DNA of 20,233 nt from a virus. The stretch lies in IMG/VR virus record IMGVR_UViG_3300034101_004661, positions 1 to 20,233 of that record. One strand, 5' to 3'. This document shows, in pieces, positions 378 through 20,202 of this stretch. Position 1 is the stretch's first letter. The number at the start of each line of letters is the position of its first letter. The translations under genes and the position numbers were made by a program. The notes beneath the pieces are model-generated. The model was not told where the DNA came from, did not search any database, and saw only the letters and a list, made by a program, of their open reading frames with translations.

Positions 378-2183
378 TTAACAGGCGGTAGAACCATCCA
401 CTGTGATGTAAACATTTTGTGGACCTGATGATAAAACAGAATAGCTAAAGTCACAACCGAATCCACCTGGCCCATCAGGACAAACTGATGTACTTCCTGC
501 TACTGTAAATGTTGATGTGTTATTGAAATCAATTGTATCTCCAATTTCTAATCCACTAATTGCAAAACTATAAGTACAAGATGTGGTTGTCACTGGACCA
601 GCATTGATAAATGTTCCATTATTTATACTAAATTGTAAATTTCCCGTGGGTGCAGTAGTTTTATATTTTGTGTAAACAAGTACTTGATTCTCAACCGGTG
701 TGGATGTAGGTGTTGGTGTTGGTGTATTAGTAGGAGCAGGTGTTGGTGTTGGTGTATTTGATAGTACTGGAGTAGGTGTTGGCGTATCCGTTGGTAACGG
801 AGTTGGAGTTGGTGTGACAGTTGGCGCTGGAGATGTTGGAGTAGGTGTTGGTGTGTTAGTTGGTGAAGGTGTTGGAGTTGGTGTGATACAACTACAAGAC
901 GTGTTACCGTATACTACTGATGATATTGTTGCTCCTATACCTGTAACTGTTCCAAAATCAACACAATCGTTTATTACTTGTGGTCCTATTCCGTAAAAAC
1001 TTGAAACTGGTGTTCCACAGCAATTTATATATCCAACTGAACCTGCGACATCAACATCAAATGTAACTTGTGTTACACACTCAGGAGGTATTGGTGTACT
1101 TGTTGGAGTAGGTGTTGGTGTATCTGTTGGTAACGGAGTTGGGGTTGGTGTGTCTGTTGGTACTGGGGTTGGAGTTGGAGTATTAGTTGGTGCTCCAGTT
1201 GGAGTAGGGGTTGGTGTGTCAGTTGGTGGAGCAGTTGTTGGTGTTGGTGTAGGTGTAGATGTTGCTGTTGGTGTTGGAGTAGGGGTTGCTATTGAACAAG
1301 TAGCACATGATGTGAGTGCTTGATATGTTGTTGTATTAATTTTACCTGCTGATATATAACTACCAGAGCCATCTGTTAAGTATGTAGGTGACTGTGTTAT
1401 ACCTGTGAAGTTAACACTTGTGAAATTAGTTGATGTACAGAAAGTTGGGCCGTCTCCAGTAACACCTGTAACTGTTGTTCCTATTCCATTACAAATATCA
1501 ACTAATATTCCACCTTGTATTAAACTTCCACTAAATACTGTTAGTGTAGGAGTTGGAGTAGGGGTAGATGTTGGTGTTGGTGTGTTAGTAGGTGTTAATG
1601 TTGGAGTAGGAGTTGGTGTATCTGTTGGTGGTGGTGGAGTTGGAGTAGCAGTAGGTGTTGCTGTAGCAGTTGGTGTTGCTGTAGCAGTAGGTGTTGCTGT
1701 TGGTGTTGGTGTATTAGTAGCAGTTGGTGTTGGTGTTGGGGTTGGTGTAGCAGTTGGAGTTGGGGTAGGAGTAGCAGTTGGATAAAATCCATCAGTATAA
1801 TTCAAATCCCATTTAATCAAAAATGTTTGATCAGTATTTGATGAAATAGGAATTGGTTCAGCCATTTTAGCTACCGCTATTAAATCTTGAGCGTCATTAT
1901 ATAAACCTACTGTCGACACATAAGGTGAAAATTCTGAACCAGAAATAGATCCAGTAGCAAAATCTTTTAATATACCATAGCTATCCTCTGGTGTGATATA
2001 AACTACACTACCATTAACTGATGAACTAAATGGTGTCATAACACCTTGTGAACCTGATAATAATGTTGGGTTATATGATGTGTTAAATTCATAGTCCTTT
2101 ATAGTACATTTGATGAAAGTCTCATAAACAACATGGTTGTTTTTAAACTTAACATCGAAATTTGGTACTATAGTTCTAATCAT
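378..2183 (-). CDS. Pro-Thr-linked multi-module tail fibre/adhesin-like structural protein (601 aa)
   Basis: The protein has four globular parts joined by three Pro-Thr tracts. Residues 1 to about 133 form an N-terminal domain containing [18 protein letters not shown] and ending in LIKWDLNY; it resembles the C-terminus of the 344-aa protein encoded at 3507..4541. PT tracts lie at about 134-214, 297-367 and 432-495. Between them are module A (about 215-296, four Cys, ending TSCATC), module B (about 368-431, six Cys, ending NTSCSC) and C-terminal module C (about 496-601, four Cys). The N-terminal domain has only one Cys. The N-terminal similarity suggests docking in the baseplate, with the PT stretches as extended spacers carrying disulfide-stabilised tips; this is inference. 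No enzymatic motif is seen. The start ATG at 2183 is 20 nt after the 430-aa gene and has a weak AAGAG upstream. Confidence 0.8.
697..886 (-). repeat. Degenerate hexamer tandem repeat encoding Pro-Thr tract 3
   Basis: The plus strand shows runs of GGTGTTGGTGTTGGAGTA-type units, a degenerate 6-bp repeat. The coding strand reads as alternating Thr-Pro with occasional Asn, Ser, Ala, Val or Leu. Units differ at third positions. Gain or loss of a unit keeps the frame. Confidence 0.85.
1083..1291 (-). repeat. Degenerate hexamer tandem repeat encoding Pro-Thr tract 2
   Basis: Same 6-bp repeat class as at 697..886. It separates Cys-rich modules A and B of the 601-aa fibre protein and includes short PTDTPTPTP sub-repeats. 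Confidence 0.85.
1540..1782 (-). repeat. Degenerate hexamer tandem repeat encoding Pro-Thr tract 1
   Basis: This is the longest PT tract of the 601-aa protein (about 80 residues). It contains alternating TPTAT/TPTPT sub-repeats, visible on the plus strand as GTTGCTGTAGCAGTAGGT-like repeats. It joins the N-terminal domain to Cys-rich module A. Confidence 0.85.
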
Positions 2184-2203
2184 CTCTTATTATTTAATTT
2201 ATG

Positions 2204-3496
2204 TTATGGACAAGCTCCTAAAAAGCAATCTGTTTCTACTATAACTTGATCACCAATATTTACCACAACACCTGTGATTTGTGGGAATGGATTTGATGTG
2301 AAGTAAGTTACATATGTTGGTGTTCCGTTTATATAAACTCTTAACGCACCACAATTTCCTGTACCTGGTAAGTTAGTAGTCACATTAAGTTGAATTGTAT
2401 TTGAACCACCATAGTTTACACTACCTGGGTTTAACACACTTCCTTGCAATGTTGATGTTAATGGGAAGTTTGATGGTCCCGCTGATAATGATCCTATAAA
2501 GTTACCATTAATACCAGCATCATTAATTGATCCAAATCCACAGTTAGCATTTCTAATTGTCCAAATAGTTGGTGGAGGTGTTGGTGTTGGAGTAGGTGTA
2601 GGTGTTGGTGTAGGTGTTGGTGTATTAGTTGGGGTATTAGTTGGTGTTGGTGTTACTGTAGGAGTTGAAGTTGCTGTTGGTGTTGGTGTTATTGTTGGTG
2701 TTGGTGTTGGAGTGAAAGTATTAGTTGGTGTTGGCGTTACTGTAGGAGTAGCAGTATTAGTTGGTGTAGGGGTTGGAGTTGGTGTAGGGGTTGGAGTTGG
2801 TGTATTAGTAGCAGTAGGAGTAGGTGTTGGTGTTCCAGTTGGGGTTGGAGTTGGAGTAGGGGTTGGTGTTGGTGTAGGCATAAATCCATTAGGAATTATA
2901 CTTAATATGGCTATATTTTGCTCATAAAACACATTACCTACATATGAACTCTGAGATAATACTGTTCCAATAGAAGAACTAACATTACTACCGCTGTAAA
3001 ATAAGTTATAATTTCCATCATCATATATTTTATAATCAGCAGATGCGCTCACATATGATAATTCAAATGTTGTTGGTAAAATTTTATCACCAGTTAACTG
3101 ACGTGGAAAATTAATAGCGTAAATTAATGATCCATTTCCTGTTGGAAAATATCTTACAGTATCTAAATTACCTAAATTAACAATTCCTTCATTATAAGAA
3201 GATGTAGATAAGGTACCATCATTAAAGATAGTACCTTGCATTGAACTAGTATTCACATACCCTGGAAGAAATCTAGGGTAATAAGTAGCGTTTACCATGT
3301 CATAAACTAAACGATCATATTGACCGTTAGTTTCAAGTTCATTGTAGGGATCAAATAGCGAACTAGTAAACTTAACTCCTGCGTTTACAGTTATTTGATT
3401 GTCAGCTAAAGACCCAGACCTAATATCCCAGCTTTTGTTTGCTGTATAAGGTACTACAAAATAGTCTGATACGTTAATTCGTTTAAATGCTGACAT
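2204..3496 (-). CDS. Pro-Thr-linked tail fibre/structural protein (430 aa)
   Basis: The N-terminal domain (about 1-205, starting [17 protein letters not shown]) contains no cysteine and looks like a beta-rich virion protein. A Pro-Thr tract of about 100 residues (206-309) follows, then a C-terminal module (about 310-430) with four Cys ([22 protein letters not shown]). The C-terminal module has an IGDQV segment comparable to IGDTI in the last module of the neighbouring 601-aa protein, so the tips may be distantly related. The gene starts 10 nt after the 344-aa gene and ends 20 nt before the 601-aa gene. I infer a fibre or whisker-like appendage exposed on the virion. No enzymatic motif is visible. 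Confidence 0.78.
2569..2880 (-). repeat. Degenerate hexamer tandem repeat encoding the Pro-Thr tract of the 430-aa protein
   Basis: The plus strand carries about 50 units of GGTGTT/GGAGTA/GGGGTT type. The coding strand gives PTPTPT with interspersed Asn, Ala, Val, Ile and Phe. It is the longest uninterrupted repeat of the window and matches in kind the three tracts of the downstream gene. Confidence 0.87.
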
Positions 3497-11601: not shown

Positions 11602-12201
11602 TTAAGCTAGTAAGTGATGATACTCTTTAAAGTGTTTAATACGATCAGCTAAACCAATAGTACCACCATTAACACGTTTTGTAATTTTAGTTACAACTGC
11701 GTCAGTAGCGCCTTCATCAGCTATCTTATGTAAACCATTCTTATTAAAAAACCAAGCAGCTGATAATAAAGCATATTTGTCTGCTACTGATGTTGGATCT
11801 TTAGTTAAGTCTTCATTAATAGATTTACCAAATGCTGTGTAGTTATCTTTACCTGTTAATTGAATATAACCACGGCCACAGAATTTAGCGCCATCACCTG
11901 ATGCTTCAGGACCATTACCCATTCTATTACCATATACTTTATTGGCAATTTTTTCTGGTTGTCTAGCGTAAGCAGCAGCTGATGCTTCAGTTGGGAAATA
12001 TTTTTTGAAAGTGCCTGTTAAACCCTTAGCACTATAGTTTAAGTTTTCTTTAGTTAGTCTAAATCCACCTGATTCATGACCACATTGAGCTAAAAAGTGA
12101 GCTAAACGTAGTGGAGTATTGATTTGGAATTTTTCCATTACTCCTGGGATTTGGCTAATTACTTTGTCTGGGATGTGTCCTTTTAATTTGTCTAGGTTCA
12201 T
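11602..12201 (-). CDS. GH19 chitinase-like peptidoglycan hydrolase (199 aa)
   Basis: This is a single GH19 domain spanning nearly the whole protein. AQCGHESGGFRLTKENLNYS holds the two candidate catalytic acids, Glu43 and Glu52. It is followed by YARQPEKIANKVYGNRMGNG, GDGAKFCGRGYIQLTGKDNY and the C-terminal TKRVNGGTIGLADR segment, all typical of bacterial and phage GH19 endolysins. Members cleave beta-1,4 bonds in chitin or peptidoglycan; in a phage the likely substrate is peptidoglycan. There is no signal peptide or membrane anchor. The gene lies 10 nt after gp6, inside the baseplate operon. It could be the lysis endolysin made late, or a tail-associated muramidase used at entry; no holin is visible in the window. 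Confidence 0.92.
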   Translation of the reverse strand: MNLDKLKGHIPDKVISQIPGVMEKFQINTPLRLAHFLAQCGHESGGFRLTKENLNYSAKGLTGTFKKYFPTEASAAAYARQPEKIANKVYGNRMGNGPEASGDGAKFCGRGYIQLTGKDNYTAFGKSINEDLTKDPTSVADKYALLSAAWFFNKNGLHKIADEGATDAVVTKITKRVNGGTIGLADRIKHFKEYHHLLA

Positions 12202-12211
12202 ATTTTAATTT

Positions 12212-14083
12212 TTAGTAAGTTACTACTTTACCATAAATATCAGTGTCAGGGAATCTTACTTCAAAAATCATTGGATCAAGAGATGGATAAACAACACCTT
12301 GCTTTGTAGCGGCTTTAATATCATATGAGTATAAAGAGTAGTTACCACCCGCTAAGTTTACAACATCTACTTTAACAACTGATTGAACTCCCATTACAGC
12401 ACCGATTAAATTATAAATGTTTGAATAAATAATTGGTTGATTGATTTGCCATTTAGAAATATCAAAATAGTCTTTAACAGCAGCTATAGCTCTGGTTAAT
12501 ACTTCTTGAGAGTTATAAGCTGGAGATGTTGTTATATCAAATGATACTTTTATATTAGCATAATAAGCATCCTTAATTAAAATAGCATCACTAGCCATTT
12601 TATGATACGCTAAATATGTTTTTAAATTTTGTTTAATAGCATTAGATGCTCTAGTCATTTTATTATCTAAATCAGTTGATAAAATATAAATAGATAAAGC
12701 TAATGGATTATTAGTTACAAAATTTTGTCTATCAGTATCATTAGCTACTAAATAATCTTGTGTTACATAAGCTTTACTTATATAACCAAATTTAGCAGGC
12801 ATTGAAAGTGTTCTAACTAAATAGTCAGCTTTAGTAACATTTCTATTTTGAGTAGGGAAGTTAGCTAAAGCTTGTAAACGAATCTGTTCTGTTGATTCAC
12901 CAGGTCCACCACCAGCTGATGGTTGTGAGTTATTAAATCTAATAGAATTTCTTAAACTAGTAATTAAATTAGCATCTAAATTGTAAGAGTCAATAAATGA
13001 AGTTACTATTGAATTTATATTAATATCATCAGATGGTAAGTTAGCTGTTATACCTCCTCCAGTAACATATTCAACAACTAATGTTGTGTTAGCTGGGGCT
13101 ATACCATATTCATTTGTGTATAAGAAATTTGATGGATCATAAGCTTGATTTAGCTTACTAATTCCATCTACTAAACCTAAACCTACATTATCTGGATTTG
13201 GAATAATAGTTTCATCAGGTACTGATGTTACTCCACTACCAAATTCTAAAGTTAAATTATTATCATCATCAAAACGAGATACAAAACGTCTTGGTACTCG
13301 TTTTAAACGTAACATAAAACGAGCATTATCATTTTCATCAGCATAATTAGGCTCATTAGACGCTATGTTCAATGTTTCGTCAAATACTGTATCTTGAGCT
13401 AAATAAGGTACTTCATACCACTGATTATTATCACTATCTGTTACACTTAATATTTGAATTATATCAGGGTCAGATATAGTTACAGTTGAAAATTGTTGAG
13501 GATTACCAAATGTAAAATCTGTTGTTTTAATAGTACCTGAATATGCTTTTACTTGTTTTTTAAGTAAGTAAAATTGTGGATTACCACTTCCATCATATTG
13601 ATATATAGTGATTGTTGTTGGATCAAATGAAGATGAGAATCCAAAATCAACTAAATCCTCAGTTATAAAAGTTACACTTGGATTTGATGTTGATTGTATA
13701 GTTGAGTTTTGAGCTATTTTAAAAGCATATCTCCAGTCAGGGCTATAAGTTGGAGCGCCAATACTTGGTACCTGTTGATACACATCTAACATAACACTAG
13801 ATGCTGTTGTTATTTTAGGTCTATACCCTAAAGCATAAGCTAAAGCAATTATATTTTTTCTCTCTTGAGCGTATAATAATAATGTTTCTTGTAATTGAGT
13901 ATCAGTATAAAATGATAAAACGTCACCAATATAAGCGGCCATCTCCATAAACATATTACCTGGAGATGATGGACTGAAGTCCATATAAGTATTTTGGAAA
14001 TATGTTCTAGCGTAGTTAATAAGATCTTGTCGCAACGTAGCGAAATCTTTATTATAATATTTTATATCTGGTTGGTTTGCCAT
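12212..14083 (-). CDS. Baseplate wedge protein gp6-like (baseplate J family)
   Basis: The start MANQPDIKYYNKDFATLRQD, followed by YARTYFQNTYMDFSPSSPGN and the MFMEMAAYIGDVLSFYTDTQ segment, is the hallmark of T4 gp6/baseplate-J-like wedge proteins. VTKADYLVRTLSMPAKFGYI in the C-terminal half and the ITTSPAYNSQEVLTRAIAAV region also match the family. Length (623 aa) is close to T4 gp6 (660 aa). In T4, gp6 dimers link neighbouring wedges into the ring around the hub and undergo the main rearrangement at contraction. The start at 14083 lies 1 nt after the gp25 stop (TAA-A-ATG), preserving the gp25-gp6 adjacency. Confidence 0.93.
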   Translation of the reverse strand: MANQPDIKYYNKDFATLRQDLINYARTYFQNTYMDFSPSSPGNMFMEMAAYIGDVLSFYTDTQLQETLLLYAQERKNIIALAYALGYRPKITTASSVMLDVYQQVPSIGAPTYSPDWRYAFKIAQNSTIQSTSNPSVTFITEDLVDFGFSSSFDPTTITIYQYDGSGNPQFYLLKKQVKAYSGTIKTTDFTFGNPQQFSTVTISDPDIIQILSVTDSDNNQWYEVPYLAQDTVFDETLNIASNEPNYADENDNARFMLRLKRVPRRFVSRFDDDNNLTLEFGSGVTSVPDETIIPNPDNVGLGLVDGISKLNQAYDPSNFLYTNEYGIAPANTTLVVEYVTGGGITANLPSDDININSIVTSFIDSYNLDANLITSLRNSIRFNNSQPSAGGGPGESTEQIRLQALANFPTQNRNVTKADYLVRTLSMPAKFGYISKAYVTQDYLVANDTDRQNFVTNNPLALSIYILSTDLDNKMTRASNAIKQNLKTYLAYHKMASDAILIKDAYYANIKVSFDITTSPAYNSQEVLTRAIAAVKDYFDISKWQINQPIIYSNIYNLIGAVMGVQSVVKVDVVNLAGGNYSLYSYDIKAATKQGVVYPSLDPMIFEVRFPDTDIYGKVVTY

Positions 14084-14084
14084 T

Positions 14085-14519
14085 TTATCTAATTAAATTA
14101 ATAAGTCCTCTTGTCTCAACATTAACAACAACTTGTTGGTTTTGTTGATTAAGTTGATAATTTATAGCTATGTTCACTAAATTATTGTTTGGGTCTCTTC
14201 TAATGATTATAGACTGTAAAATAATATTAGGAACATAAATTAATATTTCATCCTCTAGTCTAGCAGCTATATCATCAAATGTTGAATCATCATTAGCCTC
14301 AAATATAGCTCGTCTAATATCTCCTCCAAAATTAGGGTCATATAAACGTTCACCCTTGTTAGTTAAAACATAATTAATCAAATTAGATTTAATTTGATCT
14401 TTAGTTGTTATTGTTGAGTTAAAAACACTAGTGTTATTACTGTATAAAACACTAATACCAATACCTTTTGGTTGTCCAAAGTCTTGAGGGTTAAGTCTAT
14501 ATATTTGTCTAATTGCCAT
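14085..14519 (-). CDS. Baseplate wedge protein gp25-like (GPW/gp25 family)
   Basis: The GPW/gp25 signature is clear: YVLTNKGERLYDPNFGGDIR followed by RAIFEANDDST, then IAARLEDEILIYVPNI and a beta-rich end (INYQLNQQNQQVVVNVET). Length 144 aa is typical (T4 gp25 is 132 aa). In T4 this protein connects the wedge to the sheath-initiating core; homologues occur in type VI secretion (TssE). Despite old annotations of lysozyme activity for the family, no catalytic residues are evident. Its ATG overlaps the upstream stop by one base (TAATG), and gp6 follows 1 nt after its own stop, so all three are probably co-translated. Confidence 0.94.
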   Translation of the reverse strand: MAIRQIYRLNPQDFGQPKGIGISVLYSNNTSVFNSTITTKDQIKSNLINYVLTNKGERLYDPNFGGDIRRAIFEANDDSTFDDIAARLEDEILIYVPNIILQSIIIRRDPNNNLVNIAINYQLNQQNQQVVVNVETRGLINLIR

Positions 14520-14996: not shown

Positions 14997-16220
14997 TTAT
15001 CCAAGTATTGATTTAATTTCTTCAAGTAATTCAGCATCCGTTTTTAAACGGCTTGGTGCGGTTTGTGTTATTTTTAATTTACTAAATGAATCTAACGCCT
15101 GATATTGACGCTGTTCATTAGGTAATGTTGTTAATTTAAGTATATATGTTTTACCACTAGCACTGGTGTAATTCTCATCAGATGGAACACTATTTTTAGA
15201 ATCTTCTAATTGTAAACTTAATGCATCTTTATCAACACCTGAATTGTTTTGATCAATTAAATTAAATTGTAATCTATTAATTTTGATTCTAATTTTAGTT
15301 AGCATTTCTTTAAATATAGTTAGAAACAATTGAAGAGATGTAACAGCAGCTTGATACTGATCTATTTTTTTGTTGTCTTTTTCTAACTGTTGTAAACTTC
15401 TAACTGTATTGAATAACGCTACACCTGTTGTTGGTTTAGAAGGTGTTGGGGCTGCTAATTCAGCTGTAATTCTAGCGAATCTAGCTAACATTAATCTTTG
15501 TTTAATTTTAATATATATTTTTATTACAGATAAAGCTATATTAAATACTCTAATTATATTATTTAAAGTTGTTATTATTCTGTTAAGTGTTTCTACAGTT
15601 CTTTTAATATTAGAAACACGTCTATCAAAATTACTTTTAAATATAGCGTAATTACCTGGATTTGAAGGTGTAAAAGTAAATACACCATTTTCAATAGTTA
15701 GTGTACCTTTATTTTGTAATTGTTGTTTAGTATCTTTAGTTAATTTTTTAATTAATAAATCTGCTATATTTTCAGCTCTAATAAAAGACATTAATATAGG
15801 AGTAGCTATAGACGCTATTTGAAGTTTAGCATTTTTAGCTGTTTGTCCTACTTGATCTTTTAAAAATCCTTTTTTATCATCAAGTGATTTTTCAAGTTCT
15901 TCTGATTTTTTCTTTTCTTTATCCTTACGATCCTTTATTTGTTTTTGTGTCTTATCAAGTTTATTTTTAGATTCATTTGAATTAGGTAATTTTGATGTAA
16001 AATCTTTTAACTTATTAGGATCTAATTTTTTTAATTGATCAATAGGTACATTGTTGAGTGATGCTAATTTTTCAGGAGGTAAATTTTTAATAGCATCTAA
16101 CTGAGCAGGACTTAATTGTTTAAGTTTACTTGGATCTAAAGTAGAAGTTAATCCTGCGGGTACATTATTTACATTACCTGGTTGTGAATATTGTGATGGT
16201 ATATTTCCTATTGTTGACAT
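14997..16220 (-). CDS. Helix-rich virion-cluster protein of unknown function (407 aa)
   Basis: The N-terminus is Pro/Asn-rich. Residues about 28-80 show a repeat of about 10-11 residues with the pattern P-x-x-L-x-x-L-x-x-L/V-P (DPSKLKQLS, PAQLDAIKNLP, PEKLASLNNVP, IDQLKKLD, PNKLKDFTSKLP). A highly charged probable coiled coil follows (about 85-115, KDRKDKEKKKSEELEKSL). Two hydrophobic helical stretches come next: IASIATPILMSFI (about 136) and IIRVFNIALSVIKIYIKI (about 220-237), either of which might insert in a membrane or pack in a helical bundle. The C-terminus is helical and ends LLEEIKSILG. The gene sits between the spike-like 149-aa gene (3-nt gap) and the gp25 block, so a hub, tube-end or tail-lumen role is plausible. 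I do not recognise the family. Confidence 0.65.
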   Translation of the reverse strand: MSTIGNIPSQYSQPGNVNNVPAGLTSTLDPSKLKQLSPAQLDAIKNLPPEKLASLNNVPIDQLKKLDPNKLKDFTSKLPNSNESKNKLDKTQKQIKDRKDKEKKKSEELEKSLDDKKGFLKDQVGQTAKNAKLQIASIATPILMSFIRAENIADLLIKKLTKDTKQQLQNKGTLTIENGVFTFTPSNPGNYAIFKSNFDRRVSNIKRTVETLNRIITTLNNIIRVFNIALSVIKIYIKIKQRLMLARFARITAELAAPTPSKPTTGVALFNTVRSLQQLEKDNKKIDQYQAAVTSLQLFLTIFKEMLTKIRIKINRLQFNLIDQNNSGVDKDALSLQLEDSKNSVPSDENYTSASGKTYILKLTTLPNEQRQYQALDSFSKLKITQTAPSRLKTDAELLEEIKSILG

Positions 16221-16223
16221 TAT

Positions 16224-16673
16224 TTATATTATTGATACAGTATCTGATTTGACATTACCTGGTTCGGCTAAAGAATTTTTCACATTAGCCATTTTTAGTT
16301 TTAAATAAGCAGATGCTATAACAGCTAATGGAGGAAAAGCAACAGCTGCCTCCATCATTTTACTATAATTAGTCACAGCATCATTTTGGTCATTAACTGT
16401 TTCCTCTAAAGCATCTGCCTTAGGTACAGGTTCAACTGTTCTTCCTTTAGTGTCATATCCAAATTGAATATATGGAGAGTTAATGATAAAAAAGTTTTTT
16501 TCTGAATTTGTACTACCTTCAGGACCAATATCATATCTAACAGAATCTCTTGAAGTGAAGTGAACTGTTCCTTTTGAATTAAACAATATATTGTTATCAT
16601 CAGTGTTAAACACTAATCTTCCTGATGATATTAATATCTGTTCTCCTGTATAGTCTTTTATTGGATCAGCCAT
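16224..16673 (-). CDS. Spike/beta-prism-like protein, possible gp5 C-terminal equivalent (149 aa)
   Basis: Residues about 8-75 are short alternating beta-strands: GEQILISSGRLVFNTDDNNI, then LFNSKGTVHFTSRDSVRYDI and FFIINSPYIQFG. This resembles the stacked-strand prism in the C-terminal part of gp5/VgrG-type spike proteins of contractile tails. The rest is helical (about 85-130, including AVAFPPLAVIASAYLKLKM) and ends KSDTVSII. There is no enzymatic motif. The gene follows the two modular hydrolase genes (6-nt gap). That would fit a spike encoded separately from its lytic domains; this is inference from pattern and position only. Confidence 0.6.
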   Translation of the reverse strand: MADPIKDYTGEQILISSGRLVFNTDDNNILFNSKGTVHFTSRDSVRYDIGPEGSTNSEKNFFIINSPYIQFGYDTKGRTVEPVPKADALEETVNDQNDAVTNYSKMMEAAVAFPPLAVIASAYLKLKMANVKNSLAEPGNVKSDTVSII

Positions 16674-16679
16674 AATTTT

Positions 16680-18377
16680 TTATTTAAAATATGATTTATA
16701 TTGATTAAGTAGTGTTCTAGCTGCTTTTAGTTTTCCTTTTAAAACTTGAACACCTACTCTAGAATTTTGTTCTATATTAAATATATCACCACTAGGATAA
16801 TATTTCTTAAATTCAGATTGTGCTAAGGCAAACAACCCTTTATACCCAGGATTTCCAGAGTTTGGTTTAAAACTACTTTCAATATAAGCTGTTGTTATTA
16901 TATAATCAAGAGGTACACCATATTCACCTGATAAGTTTGAGAATAAAGCATATAAATCTTTAGGTATACTTTTCTTAGCTTGAGCTATTTTTTGAGCTAT
17001 TTTAAATGATGCCCAATAGGTAAAAAAGTTACCTGGTGTAAAACTTGTTTCTGCATTATTACCAAATGTTTTAATAAAATCATCACTAACATTAGTACTC
17101 CATTTGGAGTAAGTCGCAGTAACATATTTTGTACCATTTAATCTAAAACCATACATGTTACCATTAACATTTTCTGAGGTGAAATCATTATTTTTTGGTA
17201 CTTTTTGGCTTGGTTGTATAAAAGAATAATATAAAATAGCTTGTAAACCTCCAGGTCCTTGGTTATGACTTAAATAAACAAGAGTAAACTCAGTTTGATC
17301 TGAGGCTGTGACTGGTGGAAGATCTGTTTTCTTAGATGGTGCTCTTTTAACATCATTAGGATCATTTAAAGCATCAACATATTCTTTAGTATAATTAAAA
17401 ACGTGTCTAGCTACTTGATCTGTTACTTGAGTTGAAGCTAATTCTAATTCTTGATCCTCTAAGAATACAAATTCATCAATTTGTTCCTCATCAGGAGGGG
17501 GAGCGGCTGGTGGTAGTTTTTCTTCTTGTTGTGGGGGTGTAGCAACTTGTGGAGTAGGAGTTATTGTCACAGTTGGAACAACATTTTTTGATATTATTTC
17601 ATCTATTTTTTTTCCAATTAATTTATAAACAGGTTTATCACCATGTGGTTCAATAGCTCCAATTGGTGGTTCAACAAGTATTGCTCCTTGTTTTTCATAT
17701 TGTTTATAATAGTCTCTAACTTCTTTTTCAGTTATATCTTTTAATCCACCCCAACCCCAAGAACCTTGGACTGTTAAAACAACTGCTTTTGGAAATTTTG
17801 TTTTTATTAAACTAAATAATTTAGGAATATTATCTTTAACAAATTTACCAAATCCACCATTTGTTCCAATTACAGTAACAACATGTGTTACTTCAGGATC
17901 ACCACTATACTCTGTTAAAGCTTCTATTAACCAAGAAACTCCTTTTCCACCTTCCCATAAAGATGATTTACCACCTTTATCAGTTAATCGTGATGATTGA
18001 GTTGAGTTTTTATCAACATATGGAGTTTGACTATCACCAATTAAAATAGCTTTAACTTTTGGGAGTTTAGGATTATTATCAGTTGTTATTATTTTATTAG
18101 CATCTGTTTTATTATTTAATGTTTCATAATTATTATTTCCTAAAGCCAAAGTAGAATGTGTTTGGCTTTTAGTTATAGCAACATATGAGTTTCCATAATA
18201 TAAAGGAATATTATCTTTATTTTGAGTCTCTGATAGGAAATCTAATTCAGTATCTTTTAATCCAGAATATATAAATACATTTCCTTTGTTATCAGCTGTG
18301 ACACCATTAGATTGTCTGCCTTCAATACTTACCTCACCAGGTTTAACATCTCTAAAATATTGTTTTTTAGTTGACAT
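16680..18377 (-). CDS. Modular tail protein: shared N-module, SGNH-hydrolase-like domain, lytic-transglycosylase-like domain (565 aa)
   Basis: Residues 1-100 form a module shared with the 611-aa protein (KQYFRDVKPGEVSIEGRQSN and NKDNIPLYYGNSYVAITKSQ). Residues about 105-265 look like an SGNH hydrolase: AILIGDSQT with Ser116, VIGTNGG at 169-175, and IEPHGDKPVYKLIGKKI with candidate His245. A hinge with EEKLPPAAPPPDEE and DEFVFLED (about 281-313) is also shared. The C-terminal domain has YGVPLDYIITTAYIESSFKP with candidate catalytic Glu500, then GLFALAQSEFKKYYP, the pattern of soluble-lytic-transglycosylase/goose-lysozyme folds. Predicted roles are glycan deacylation and peptidoglycan cleavage at entry. 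The canonical Asp of SGNH block V is not obvious. The start overlaps the 611-aa gene by 11 nt, implying coupled translation. Confidence 0.8.
   Translation of the reverse strand: MSTKKQYFRDVKPGEVSIEGRQSNGVTADNKGNVFIYSGLKDTELDFLSETQNKDNIPLYYGNSYVAITKSQTHSTLALGNNNYETLNNKTDANKIITTDNNPKLPKVKAILIGDSQTPYVDKNSTQSSRLTDKGGKSSLWEGGKGVSWLIEALTEYSGDPEVTHVVTVIGTNGGFGKFVKDNIPKLFSLIKTKFPKAVVLTVQGSWGWGGLKDITEKEVRDYYKQYEKQGAILVEPPIGAIEPHGDKPVYKLIGKKIDEIISKNVVPTVTITPTPQVATPPQQEEKLPPAAPPPDEEQIDEFVFLEDQELELASTQVTDQVARHVFNYTKEYVDALNDPNDVKRAPSKKTDLPPVTASDQTEFTLVYLSHNQGPGGLQAILYYSFIQPSQKVPKNNDFTSENVNGNMYGFRLNGTKYVTATYSKWSTNVSDDFIKTFGNNAETSFTPGNFFTYWASFKIAQKIAQAKKSIPKDLYALFSNLSGEYGVPLDYIITTAYIESSFKPNSGNPGYKGLFALAQSEFKKYYPSGDIFNIEQNSRVGVQVLKGKLKAARTLLNQYKSYFK
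17455..17528 (-). repeat. Shared hinge repeat, copy 2 (in the 565-aa gene)
   Basis: This 74-nt segment aligns without gaps to 19142..19215, with 63 of 74 positions identical by hand count. It encodes the acidic/proline hinge (EEKLPPAAPPPDEE). The flanking domains on both sides are unrelated between the two genes. Confidence 0.75.
18080..18144 (-). repeat. Shared N-module repeat, copy 2 (in the 565-aa gene)
   Basis: This 65-nt segment matches 19905..19969 at 62 of 65 positions by hand count. It encodes the end of the shared N-terminal module (LGNNNYETLNNKTDANKIIT). Similarity drops sharply beyond it, where the variable enzyme-like domain begins. Confidence 0.8.
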
Positions 18378-20202
18378 AAGCTATTCTTTCTAATCCTGCT
18401 TCTATTTGATCACGTGATTGATTTTTTCTAATTACACCACCTGCTGGGTCAAATACAGTATATGTTCCATCTGAATTTTTACCAGTTATTACCATCCAGT
18501 GTTGGTTACAACATGTATAACTTATACCTTTAGAATCTCCTTTATAATTTCCTTTTTTATTACCTTTATATAAGTTATATCCTTTAGGCCATCCTTTCTT
18601 TGATGACCATTCAAAACCAACTGGTTTAGTTTTTAATATATTATCAATTCCAGCTAAACTTCCACTTGTTAATTTTATACTTTTACCAAACACACCCGCT
18701 AAATTATCAAAGTATACAAGTACAGATTTAGTATTTGGTTTACCACTATTCCATACAGAATAAGGAGTAGTTTTGCTAGCATCCTTTGTAGCATTACCTA
18801 ATAACATACATATTGTAGTATAACAACATCCATGACTACTCATTTTTAAATCACCTGATTTATATGATCCCCATTCAGGATCACTTTGGCTATATAATGG
18901 TGTTGAATGGTAAATTATATCTCCTAAATTATTGTAGTCTTTAGAATTATTTTGAATTAATGCTTTTATAGATCCAACTTTATCACCAGTTGGTATTTTT
19001 TCTTTCTTTTTCTCTCTTCTAATGATTTTTTCTTCTTCTTCTTTTTCTCTTCTAAGATCTTCAATAGTTAATTCTTCATTATTATTAACAGTAGTATCAA
19101 TAAAAGCAGTTAATTGTGTAGGAGAAAGTTCAGGAGAGCTTTCTTCTAAGAATATAAATTCAGTTACTTCTTCATCATCAGGAGGAGGTGCGGCTGGTGG
19201 TATTTTTTCTTCTTGCTTTGGAGGAAGAGATTGTTGTTGTTGAGGTTGAGTTTGAGTTTGTTGAGGAGTAATAGTTGTATCTAAATTAGATTCAATTTGT
19301 GATTTGAATCTAGTTAACATTTCTGAGGGTATGTCTATATGTTTTGTAGTTACCTTAACAACATTATCTTTATTATTTTTTTCTACTACACTTAATAAGT
19401 TTTTTAAACCTGAAGGATAAGTGTTATATGATGTCCATTCACCTGGATTATACATCATATATACTTTTATACCTTTATTTTTTATAGCAGTGACATTATC
19501 TTTAAGTGTAGATCCAGGCCATGGGTCCATTATTATAAAATTGACCATACCATCAATCTTACTTAGATATTTTTGAATATCTCTATTATTATTACCACTA
19601 CCTGAGAATATACCAATGCTAATATTTTTGGTTGTTAAGTTAGCTTTTTTTACTTCAGCTTCATATTCACTTTTGATATTAGACCATGCTGTTTTATCTG
19701 TATTAGGGACAACAATAACATATTTTTCATAAAAATCAGGAAGTGCTTTTTTTATTATAGGAGGCATATAATCCTTTCCATCTTTTCCTCCAACAGCTAT
19801 TCCAGGATAAAATACAAGTACACTTATCGGACCTGTTTTTCCATTTGGTATTGTTATAGTAGCATTAGTAGTTATTATAGTTTTATAACCAGTAATGTTA
19901 GGATCAGTTGTTATTATTTTATTAGCGTCTACTTTATTATTTAATGTTTCATAATTATTATTTCCTAAATTAAGATTATTATGAACTTCAGATTTAATAA
20001 CTCCAAAGTAAGAATTACCATAGTAAAGAGGTATATCATCTTTATTTTGAGTTTCAGCCAAATAATCTAACTCAGAATCTTTCAATGCTGAATAAAATAT
20101 AACATTACCTTTTTTATCAGCTGTAAAGCCATTAGACTGTCTACCTTCGACACTTACATCTCCAGGTTTAATGTTTCTAAAATATTGTTTTTTATCAGCC
20201 AT
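18367..20202 (-). CDS. Modular tail protein: shared N-module, alpha/beta-hydrolase-like domain, C39-like cysteine peptidase (611 aa)
   Basis: Residues 1-100 match the N-module of the 565-aa protein (KQYFRNIKPGDVSVEGRQSN). Residues about 105-300 resemble an alpha/beta hydrolase: ISIGIFSGSGNN places a candidate Ser at 200 or 202, FIIMDPWPG gives Asp226 and TTKHIDIP gives His288; this call is tentative. The hinge (about 326-365, EEKIPPAAPPPDDEEV) is shared. A charged coiled coil (about 385-410, EDLRREKEEEEKIIRREKKK) follows. The C-terminal domain looks like a C39-type papain-fold peptidase: YSQSDPEWGSYKSG, SSHGCCYTTICMLLG with Cys459, HWMVITG with His568 and FDPAGG with Asp585. I infer a tail-associated enzyme cutting peptide cross-links and possibly an ester- or amide-bearing surface glycan. 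The start ATG at 20202 overlaps the upstream stop by one base. Confidence 0.8.
   Translation of the reverse strand: MADKKQYFRNIKPGDVSVEGRQSNGFTADKKGNVIFYSALKDSELDYLAETQNKDDIPLYYGNSYFGVIKSEVHNNLNLGNNNYETLNNKVDANKIITTDPNITGYKTIITTNATITIPNGKTGPISVLVFYPGIAVGGKDGKDYMPPIIKKALPDFYEKYVIVVPNTDKTAWSNIKSEYEAEVKKANLTTKNISIGIFSGSGNNNRDIQKYLSKIDGMVNFIIMDPWPGSTLKDNVTAIKNKGIKVYMMYNPGEWTSYNTYPSGLKNLLSVVEKNNKDNVVKVTTKHIDIPSEMLTRFKSQIESNLDTTITPQQTQTQPQQQQSLPPKQEEKIPPAAPPPDDEEVTEFIFLEESSPELSPTQLTAFIDTTVNNNEELTIEDLRREKEEEEKIIRREKKKEKIPTGDKVGSIKALIQNNSKDYNNLGDIIYHSTPLYSQSDPEWGSYKSGDLKMSSHGCCYTTICMLLGNATKDASKTTPYSVWNSGKPNTKSVLVYFDNLAGVFGKSIKLTSGSLAGIDNILKTKPVGFEWSSKKGWPKGYNLYKGNKKGNYKGDSKGISYTCCNQHWMVITGKNSDGTYTVFDPAGGVIRKNQSRDQIEAGLERIAYVN
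19142..19215 (-). repeat. Shared hinge repeat, copy 1 (in the 611-aa gene)
   Basis: Partner of 17455..17528 (63 of 74 nt identical by hand count). It encodes EEKIPPAAPPPDDEE and the following EFIFLEE segment. Confidence 0.75.
19905..19969 (-). repeat. Shared N-module repeat, copy 1 (in the 611-aa gene)
   Basis: Partner of 18080..18144 (62 of 65 nt identical). The near-identity at nucleotide level, including third positions, points to recent duplication or recombination between the paralogues rather than protein-level constraint alone. Confidence 0.8.

Follow-up and report, generated by a model that had tools for sequence, protein, structure and literature searches.

Why would a phage carry, side by side, two genes that start with the same module and then diverge completely? 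The question is raised by a DNA stretch of 20,233 bases from an uncultured phage with a contractile tail (the window, which is the entire IMG/VR record IMGVR_UViG_3300034101_004661), where a baseplate gene cluster on the minus strand includes an open reading frame (ORF) of 611 amino acids (aa), P2 (18367-20202), that overlaps by 11 bases with one of 565 aa, P1 (16680-18377). They are followed by genes for a 149-aa protein (starting 6 bases downstream of P1), a 407-aa protein, a 172-aa protein, a gp25-like protein and a gp6-like protein. The original prediction, which was made from the window alone, held that the two adjacent genes have an N-terminal module (N-module) and an acidic, proline-rich hinge in common and differ in the two remaining slots. 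This is what BLASTP recovered: two shared blocks, consisting of the N-module (residues 1-102, 75% identity, E 5e-42) and the hinge (50 residues, 54% identity, E 2e-6), and no significant similarity between P1 and P2 outside of these. Our analysis indicates that the twins, hereafter called carriers, probably arose by duplication of the middle piece of a central cell-puncturing spike whose parts are encoded here by separate genes.

Direct searches recovered few relatives. No match to P1 or P2 was found among 50,697 annotated phage records, the search of annotated phages with the 149-aa protein was empty, the direct search of genome contigs gave nothing for any of the three proteins, and NCBIfam yielded zero matches for P1 or P2. 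Pattern scans for P1, P2 and the N-module returned two near-identical viral contigs only. The relatives were reached via the gp6-like neighbour, which led to at least 80 loci (designated L plus a number); near-duplicates are included in this set and the frequencies given below are rough. On basis of the gp6-like protein the nearest isolates are Flavobacterium phage immuto (46% identity) and Microcystis phage Mel-JY01, next to a 484-kb uncultured phage. An iterated profile identified the N-module in 61 ORFs of the collected loci, with one copy in each, and the module is therefore not a segment of low complexity. Its matches within the PDB were at chance level, for instance to gp45 of phage Mu (E 0.89).

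One near-identical contig (L002) extends further upstream than the window and contains, directly before P2, a 260-aa ORF with an OB-like N-terminus. Carriers are located between such an OB-like ORF and the 149-aa gene in all 48 loci that hold all three, and 45 loci keep the full order of sigma factor, 121-aa protein, OB-like protein, carrier(s), 149-aa, 407-aa and 172-aa proteins, gp25 and gp6. In immuto, Mel-JY01 and the 484-kb phage, one chain takes the place of the three pieces; a scan for this single chain gave at least 584 relatives, and 77 intact chains span 344-425 aa. In profile-profile alignments with the immuto chain, the OB-like family (including the L002 ORF) covers residues 16-126 (E 1.8e-12), the N-module residues 153-240 (E 6.4e-5) and the 149-aa family residues 244-377 (E 8e-27). 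The N-module scored 34.9 against the single chain, compared to a maximum of 18.3 for 100 column-shuffled controls, and a repeat with hhalign gave the same result for the N-module and the 149-aa family, while alignment of the N-module profile with that of the 149-aa family gave nothing. Because the single chain aligns in order with the OB-like piece, the N-module and the 149-aa family, P1 and P2 are, as judged by sequence, duplicates of the middle piece of a chain that relatives possess in one part, and the split and the collinearity of the pieces can be read directly from the sequences, as can the exchange and the duplication described below. The earlier proposal of a modular entry system, in which paralogues with exchangeable slots share a platform and have a connection with both the 149-aa protein and T4 gp5, is supported in part, but it missed the nature of the platform: this is homologous to the middle of what is probably a single-chain spike, of which the 149-aa protein forms the C-terminal part and the OB-like ORF beyond the contig end the N-terminal part.

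That the pieces are homologous to the single chain holds regardless of whether this chain is a spike. Its identity as a spike derives from position. The order V-W-J is typical of contractile systems, and because the chain is found just before gp25 and gp6, in this very order, we infer that it is likely the central spike, probably of the gp5/VgrG type. The OB-like ORFs of L032 and L077 carry a Pfam Phage_lysozyme2 domain (E 4e-14 and 7e-12, respectively), and matches to DUF2345, which are weak (E 0.08), point toward a prism of the VgrG type. Several observations weigh against the identification. Pfam Gp5_OB was not detected in the nine records tested, immuto included, no profile match to T4 gp5 was obtained, and the single chain lacks a significant PDB or PHROG match; since these matches are missing, 'OB' and 'prism' are to be taken as inferred labels. 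In addition, the AlphaFold models are of low confidence, with a predicted local distance difference test score (pLDDT) of 56 for P1 and 54 for P2, no annotated relative or proteomics places these proteins in virions, and the N-module shows a modest link with the single chain (hhalign probability 65%). This modest link would suit carriers that are accessory entry enzymes, docked outside the hub or tube via the N-module, with another protein acting as the true spike. The acidic hinge and the long linkers fit such a dangling accessory, and the presence of a 407-aa neighbour that lacks an assigned role is in line with it as well. We nevertheless consider external docking quite improbable, given that the OB-like and 149-aa pieces on either side of the carriers align with one and the same chain in the expected order, that the middle segment of this chain would otherwise be missing from the phages with a split spike, and that the synteny is without exception (48/48).

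In the split spike that we favour, the needle would be made up of the OB-like piece at the N-terminal end, then the carriers (P2, P1), and the 149-aa piece at the C-terminal end, with the N-module as a presumably trimeric segment stacked onto the OB collar on one side and the tip prism on the other. The remainder of each carrier would constitute a cassette of wall-cutting enzymes on flexible acidic/proline-rich linkers, held alongside the spike in the manner of the lysozyme domain of T4 gp5. Upon tail contraction the spike would carry these enzymes through the outer membrane, and the envelope could then be opened locally by a C39-like peptidase, an SLT lytic transglycosylase and one or two esterase-type enzymes (the SGNH-type and the putative alpha/beta-hydrolase). 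As a stop codon terminates the cassette, which is not embedded in a continuous spike chain, its exchange or duplication could leave the fold of the spike intact.

The domain assignments that were made at the outset for the four slots largely stand. For slot 1 of P1, the top folds found with Foldseek were those of SGNH enzymes, namely platelet-activating factor acetylhydrolase, a sialate O-acetylesterase of Bacteroides and CE2 esterases (best E 8e-4, obtained with the low-confidence model), and the blocks GDS (Ser) and GTN (block III Asn) are invariant across five relatives, which supports an SGNH-type hydrolase domain. The His of the block V Asp-x-x-His is present yet shifted compared to the relatives and the Asp is not evident. 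Slot 2 of P1 is supported as an SLT-like lytic transglycosylase domain by a Pfam SLT match (E 3.4e-4, just below the cut-off; 1.3e-6, above it, for the relative L068), by a match to the tape measure protein in PDB entry 9b45 (E 1.6e-5) and by a candidate catalytic Glu that is invariant in relatives. For slot 2 of P2, Foldseek returned papain-like proteases (E 7e-5) and the endoisopeptidase PeiR, the Gln, Cys, His and Asp are all invariant among six sequences, and the homologous domains of L047 and L048 match Pfam C39_2; fold and relatives thus support a C39/papain-like peptidase domain. The alpha/beta-hydrolase call for slot 1 of P2 is unproven and based on motifs. These are there, in the order expected for this fold (FSGSG, IIMDP, KHIDIP), but the acid of the triad was not identified, there was no confident fold match, and the profile matches were weak and directed toward periplasmic binding proteins. 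The latter matches and the irregular block V in P1 would both be understandable if the SGNH and alpha/beta-like domains were inactive binding domains, so that some slots would be non-enzymatic. Considering the invariance of the GDS and GTN blocks and the fact that nearly all recognisable cargo of the family is hydrolytic, this seems unlikely to us.

The cargo was listed for 44 non-redundant carriers from the related phage loci (an automatic domain clustering, which put most cargo together in one cluster, was set aside). The enzymes found were of at least ten kinds. According to Pfam, SLT occurred in four carriers, C39_2 in three and VanY in two (E 1.9e-16), and the other cargo comprised Phage_lysozyme2 (E 4.5e-22), Glucosaminidase (E 1e-17), GH108, GDSL, CHAP, GH19, DUF5675, DUF2272 and a phosphatase-like domain. 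The slots are exchangeable, as had been predicted, since they are shuffled among the carriers of relatives: SGNH plus SLT in P1 and L068 stands against SGNH plus C39 in L047, and alpha/beta-like plus C39 in P2 against alpha/beta-like plus another C-terminal domain and DUF5675 plus C39 in L026. The predicted order of an esterase first and a peptidoglycan cutter last does not extend to the family, with GDSL in last position in L077 and DUF5675 in first position in L026. Exchange is most apparent from the pair L020 and L023, in which the N-module, gp25 and gp6 are 100% identical, the 149-aa piece 94% and the OB-like piece 91%, against 29% for the cargo. The OB-like piece can bear cargo too (L032 and L077). 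Because the 149-aa piece is fused to an N-terminal extension of around 226 aa and of unknown type in L030 (4327-5433) and L043 (1099-2214), all three spike pieces can bear extra domains.

Some cargo deserves separate mention. The phosphatase-like domain, found in a carrier of L077 (6053-7399), resembles dual-specificity phosphatases (HCxxGxDRTG-like motif, Pfam DSPc E 0.007), which is unexpected for an entry spike. Slot 1 of L064, L069, L070, L073, L077 and L081 contains a recurrent domain of around 230 aa with, by eye, a motif near LPPGLR and without a Pfam match, a candidate for an unknown wall hydrolase. In L059 (3764-4861) and L069 (4109-5077) an ORF of 320-366 aa without an N-module is positioned between two carriers; by eye, that of L059 looks similar to the cargo domain found in L027, and gives the impression of cargo that has been detached.

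Two carriers were found in 7 of the 48 loci, derived from five lineages. The N-modules of a pair cluster within the genome in the window lineage (support 97/98), L026 (100/100) and L077 (95/92), pointing to duplication of the piece, and older pairs are present in L055/L063 and L069, where the first carrier is a short piece of 167-184 aa without an enzyme. Gene conversion as the main cause of the similarity between the window twins was mostly rejected, as 49 variable sites track the gene copy and 2 the genome; a short patch of 10 sites at nucleotides 119-149 is suggestive of conversion. The other 41 loci have a single carrier, so one suffices, and the N-modules of P1 and P2 are just 75% identical. 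The two carriers could thus be alternatives, used one per spike or for different hosts, and a virion would then never hold all four enzymes. The overlap of the two genes on the same strand, which suggests coupled translation, and the recurrence of the twin state in five lineages speak against this, and we regard it as a possible but doubtful explanation. If P1 and P2 are indeed duplicated middle pieces of the spike, it may be put forward, tentatively, that both co-assemble in one virion, as mixed trimers or stacked N-module rings with up to four enzymes per spike, and that the splitting of spikes is a general device to turn a rigid needle into an exchangeable tool holder.

Table 1. Positions of the carrier parts and of neighbouring baseplate-cluster genes in the window
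Feature	Position	Strand	Evidence
P1 N-module, residues 1-102	18072..18377	-	75% identity to P2; 61-ORF profile family; homology to middle of single chain
P1 slot 1, SGNH-type hydrolase domain, residues 108-268; candidate catalytic S116, N173, H245	17574..18056	-	Foldseek; invariant blocks
P1 hinge, acidic Pro-rich, residues 279-328, EEKLPPAAPPPDEEQIDEFVFLED	17394..17543	-	54% identity to P2 hinge
P1 slot 2, SLT-type lytic transglycosylase domain, residues 352-565; candidate catalytic E500	16683..17324	-	Pfam, PDB
P2 N-module, residues 1-102	19897..20202	-	BLASTP against P1; profile family
P2 slot 1, putative alpha/beta-hydrolase, residues 103-315; S200/S202, D226, H288	19258..19896	-	motifs invariant in 3 relatives
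P2 hinge, acidic Pro-rich, residues 325-374	19081..19230	-	BLASTP against P1
P2 slot 2, C39/papain-like cysteine peptidase, residues 408-610; Q439, C459, H568, D585	18373..18981	-	fold, invariant residues, Pfam matches of relatives
149-aa protein, putative C-terminal piece of split spike	16224..16673	-	hhalign match with residues 241-378 of the single chain, E 3e-27
407-aa helical baseplate-cluster protein	14997..16220	-	same position in 73 relative ORFs
gp25/gpW-like baseplate wedge protein	14085..14519	-	Pfam GPW_gp25 E 1.4e-10
gp6/gpJ-like baseplate wedge protein	12212..14083	-	PHROG 219 baseplate wedge subunit E 5.9e-20

Three other regions on the minus strand of the window stand out. The baseplate cluster includes the gene for a GH19-type endolysin (11602-12201, PHROG 181, E 1e-71), which has the gp6-like gene on one side and a 364-aa gene on the other. 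The tail-end proteins of 601 and 430 aa (378-3496) possess very long PTPTPT-type repeats that separate small folded segments and probably serve as linkers in tail fibres or adhesins. Finally, an ORF that runs past the contig end (2-355) resembles, by eye, a GIY-YIG homing-type endonuclease.

Taken as a conserved spike module that accepts at least ten kinds of wall-active enzymes, the carriers would represent a natural modular system. This makes it possible to test whether cargo tracks the wall chemistry of the host, and in what way the structural needle and its enzymes evolve separately. In addition, likely roles can be given to genes that, in a large group of aquatic phages, are annotated just as hypothetical, and the listed cargo would amount to a catalogue of virion-borne lysins.

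An earlier description of such a split spike was not found in the literature searched, in which the coverage of subscription journals is incomplete, but parallels with known systems can be drawn. In the Rak2-like phage CBB, too, several baseplate proteins that carry lysozyme or M23 domains are adjacent to each other, and an OB-type spike protein is present (PMC5259590), although a shared carrier module or the exchange of cassettes has not been described for it. The single-chain relatives, such as immuto, have no room for an enzyme and in this respect resemble the enzyme-free spike gp5 of phage P1 (PMC9024508), whereas in the clade of the window the spike is split and its middle piece bears a cassette of enzymes. 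Evolved VgrGs of type VI secretion are likewise spike proteins with swappable C-terminal effector domains; here, the middle piece that bears the cargo is separate, the envelope is probably what the cargo acts on while the phage enters, and the resemblance to DUF2345 is weak. A further likeness is with T4 gp5, in which the lysozyme is located between the OB fold and the beta-helix and is cut from the helix on maturation (PMC7650644, PMC3004832). Despite the lack of detectable sequence similarity, the order of the parts is the same, with the enzyme between the OB-like and the C-terminal piece, the baseplate cluster contains gp6-like and gp25-like proteins, and after cleavage between lysozyme and helix the T4 spike consists of separate chains too. 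The OB-like ORFs of L032 and L077 have the OB-plus-lysozyme plan of mature T4 gp5 (PMC7650644). What sets the locus of the window apart from T4 is that each piece has a gene of its own, that an N-module is added, and that there are two carriers and several enzymes other than lysozyme.

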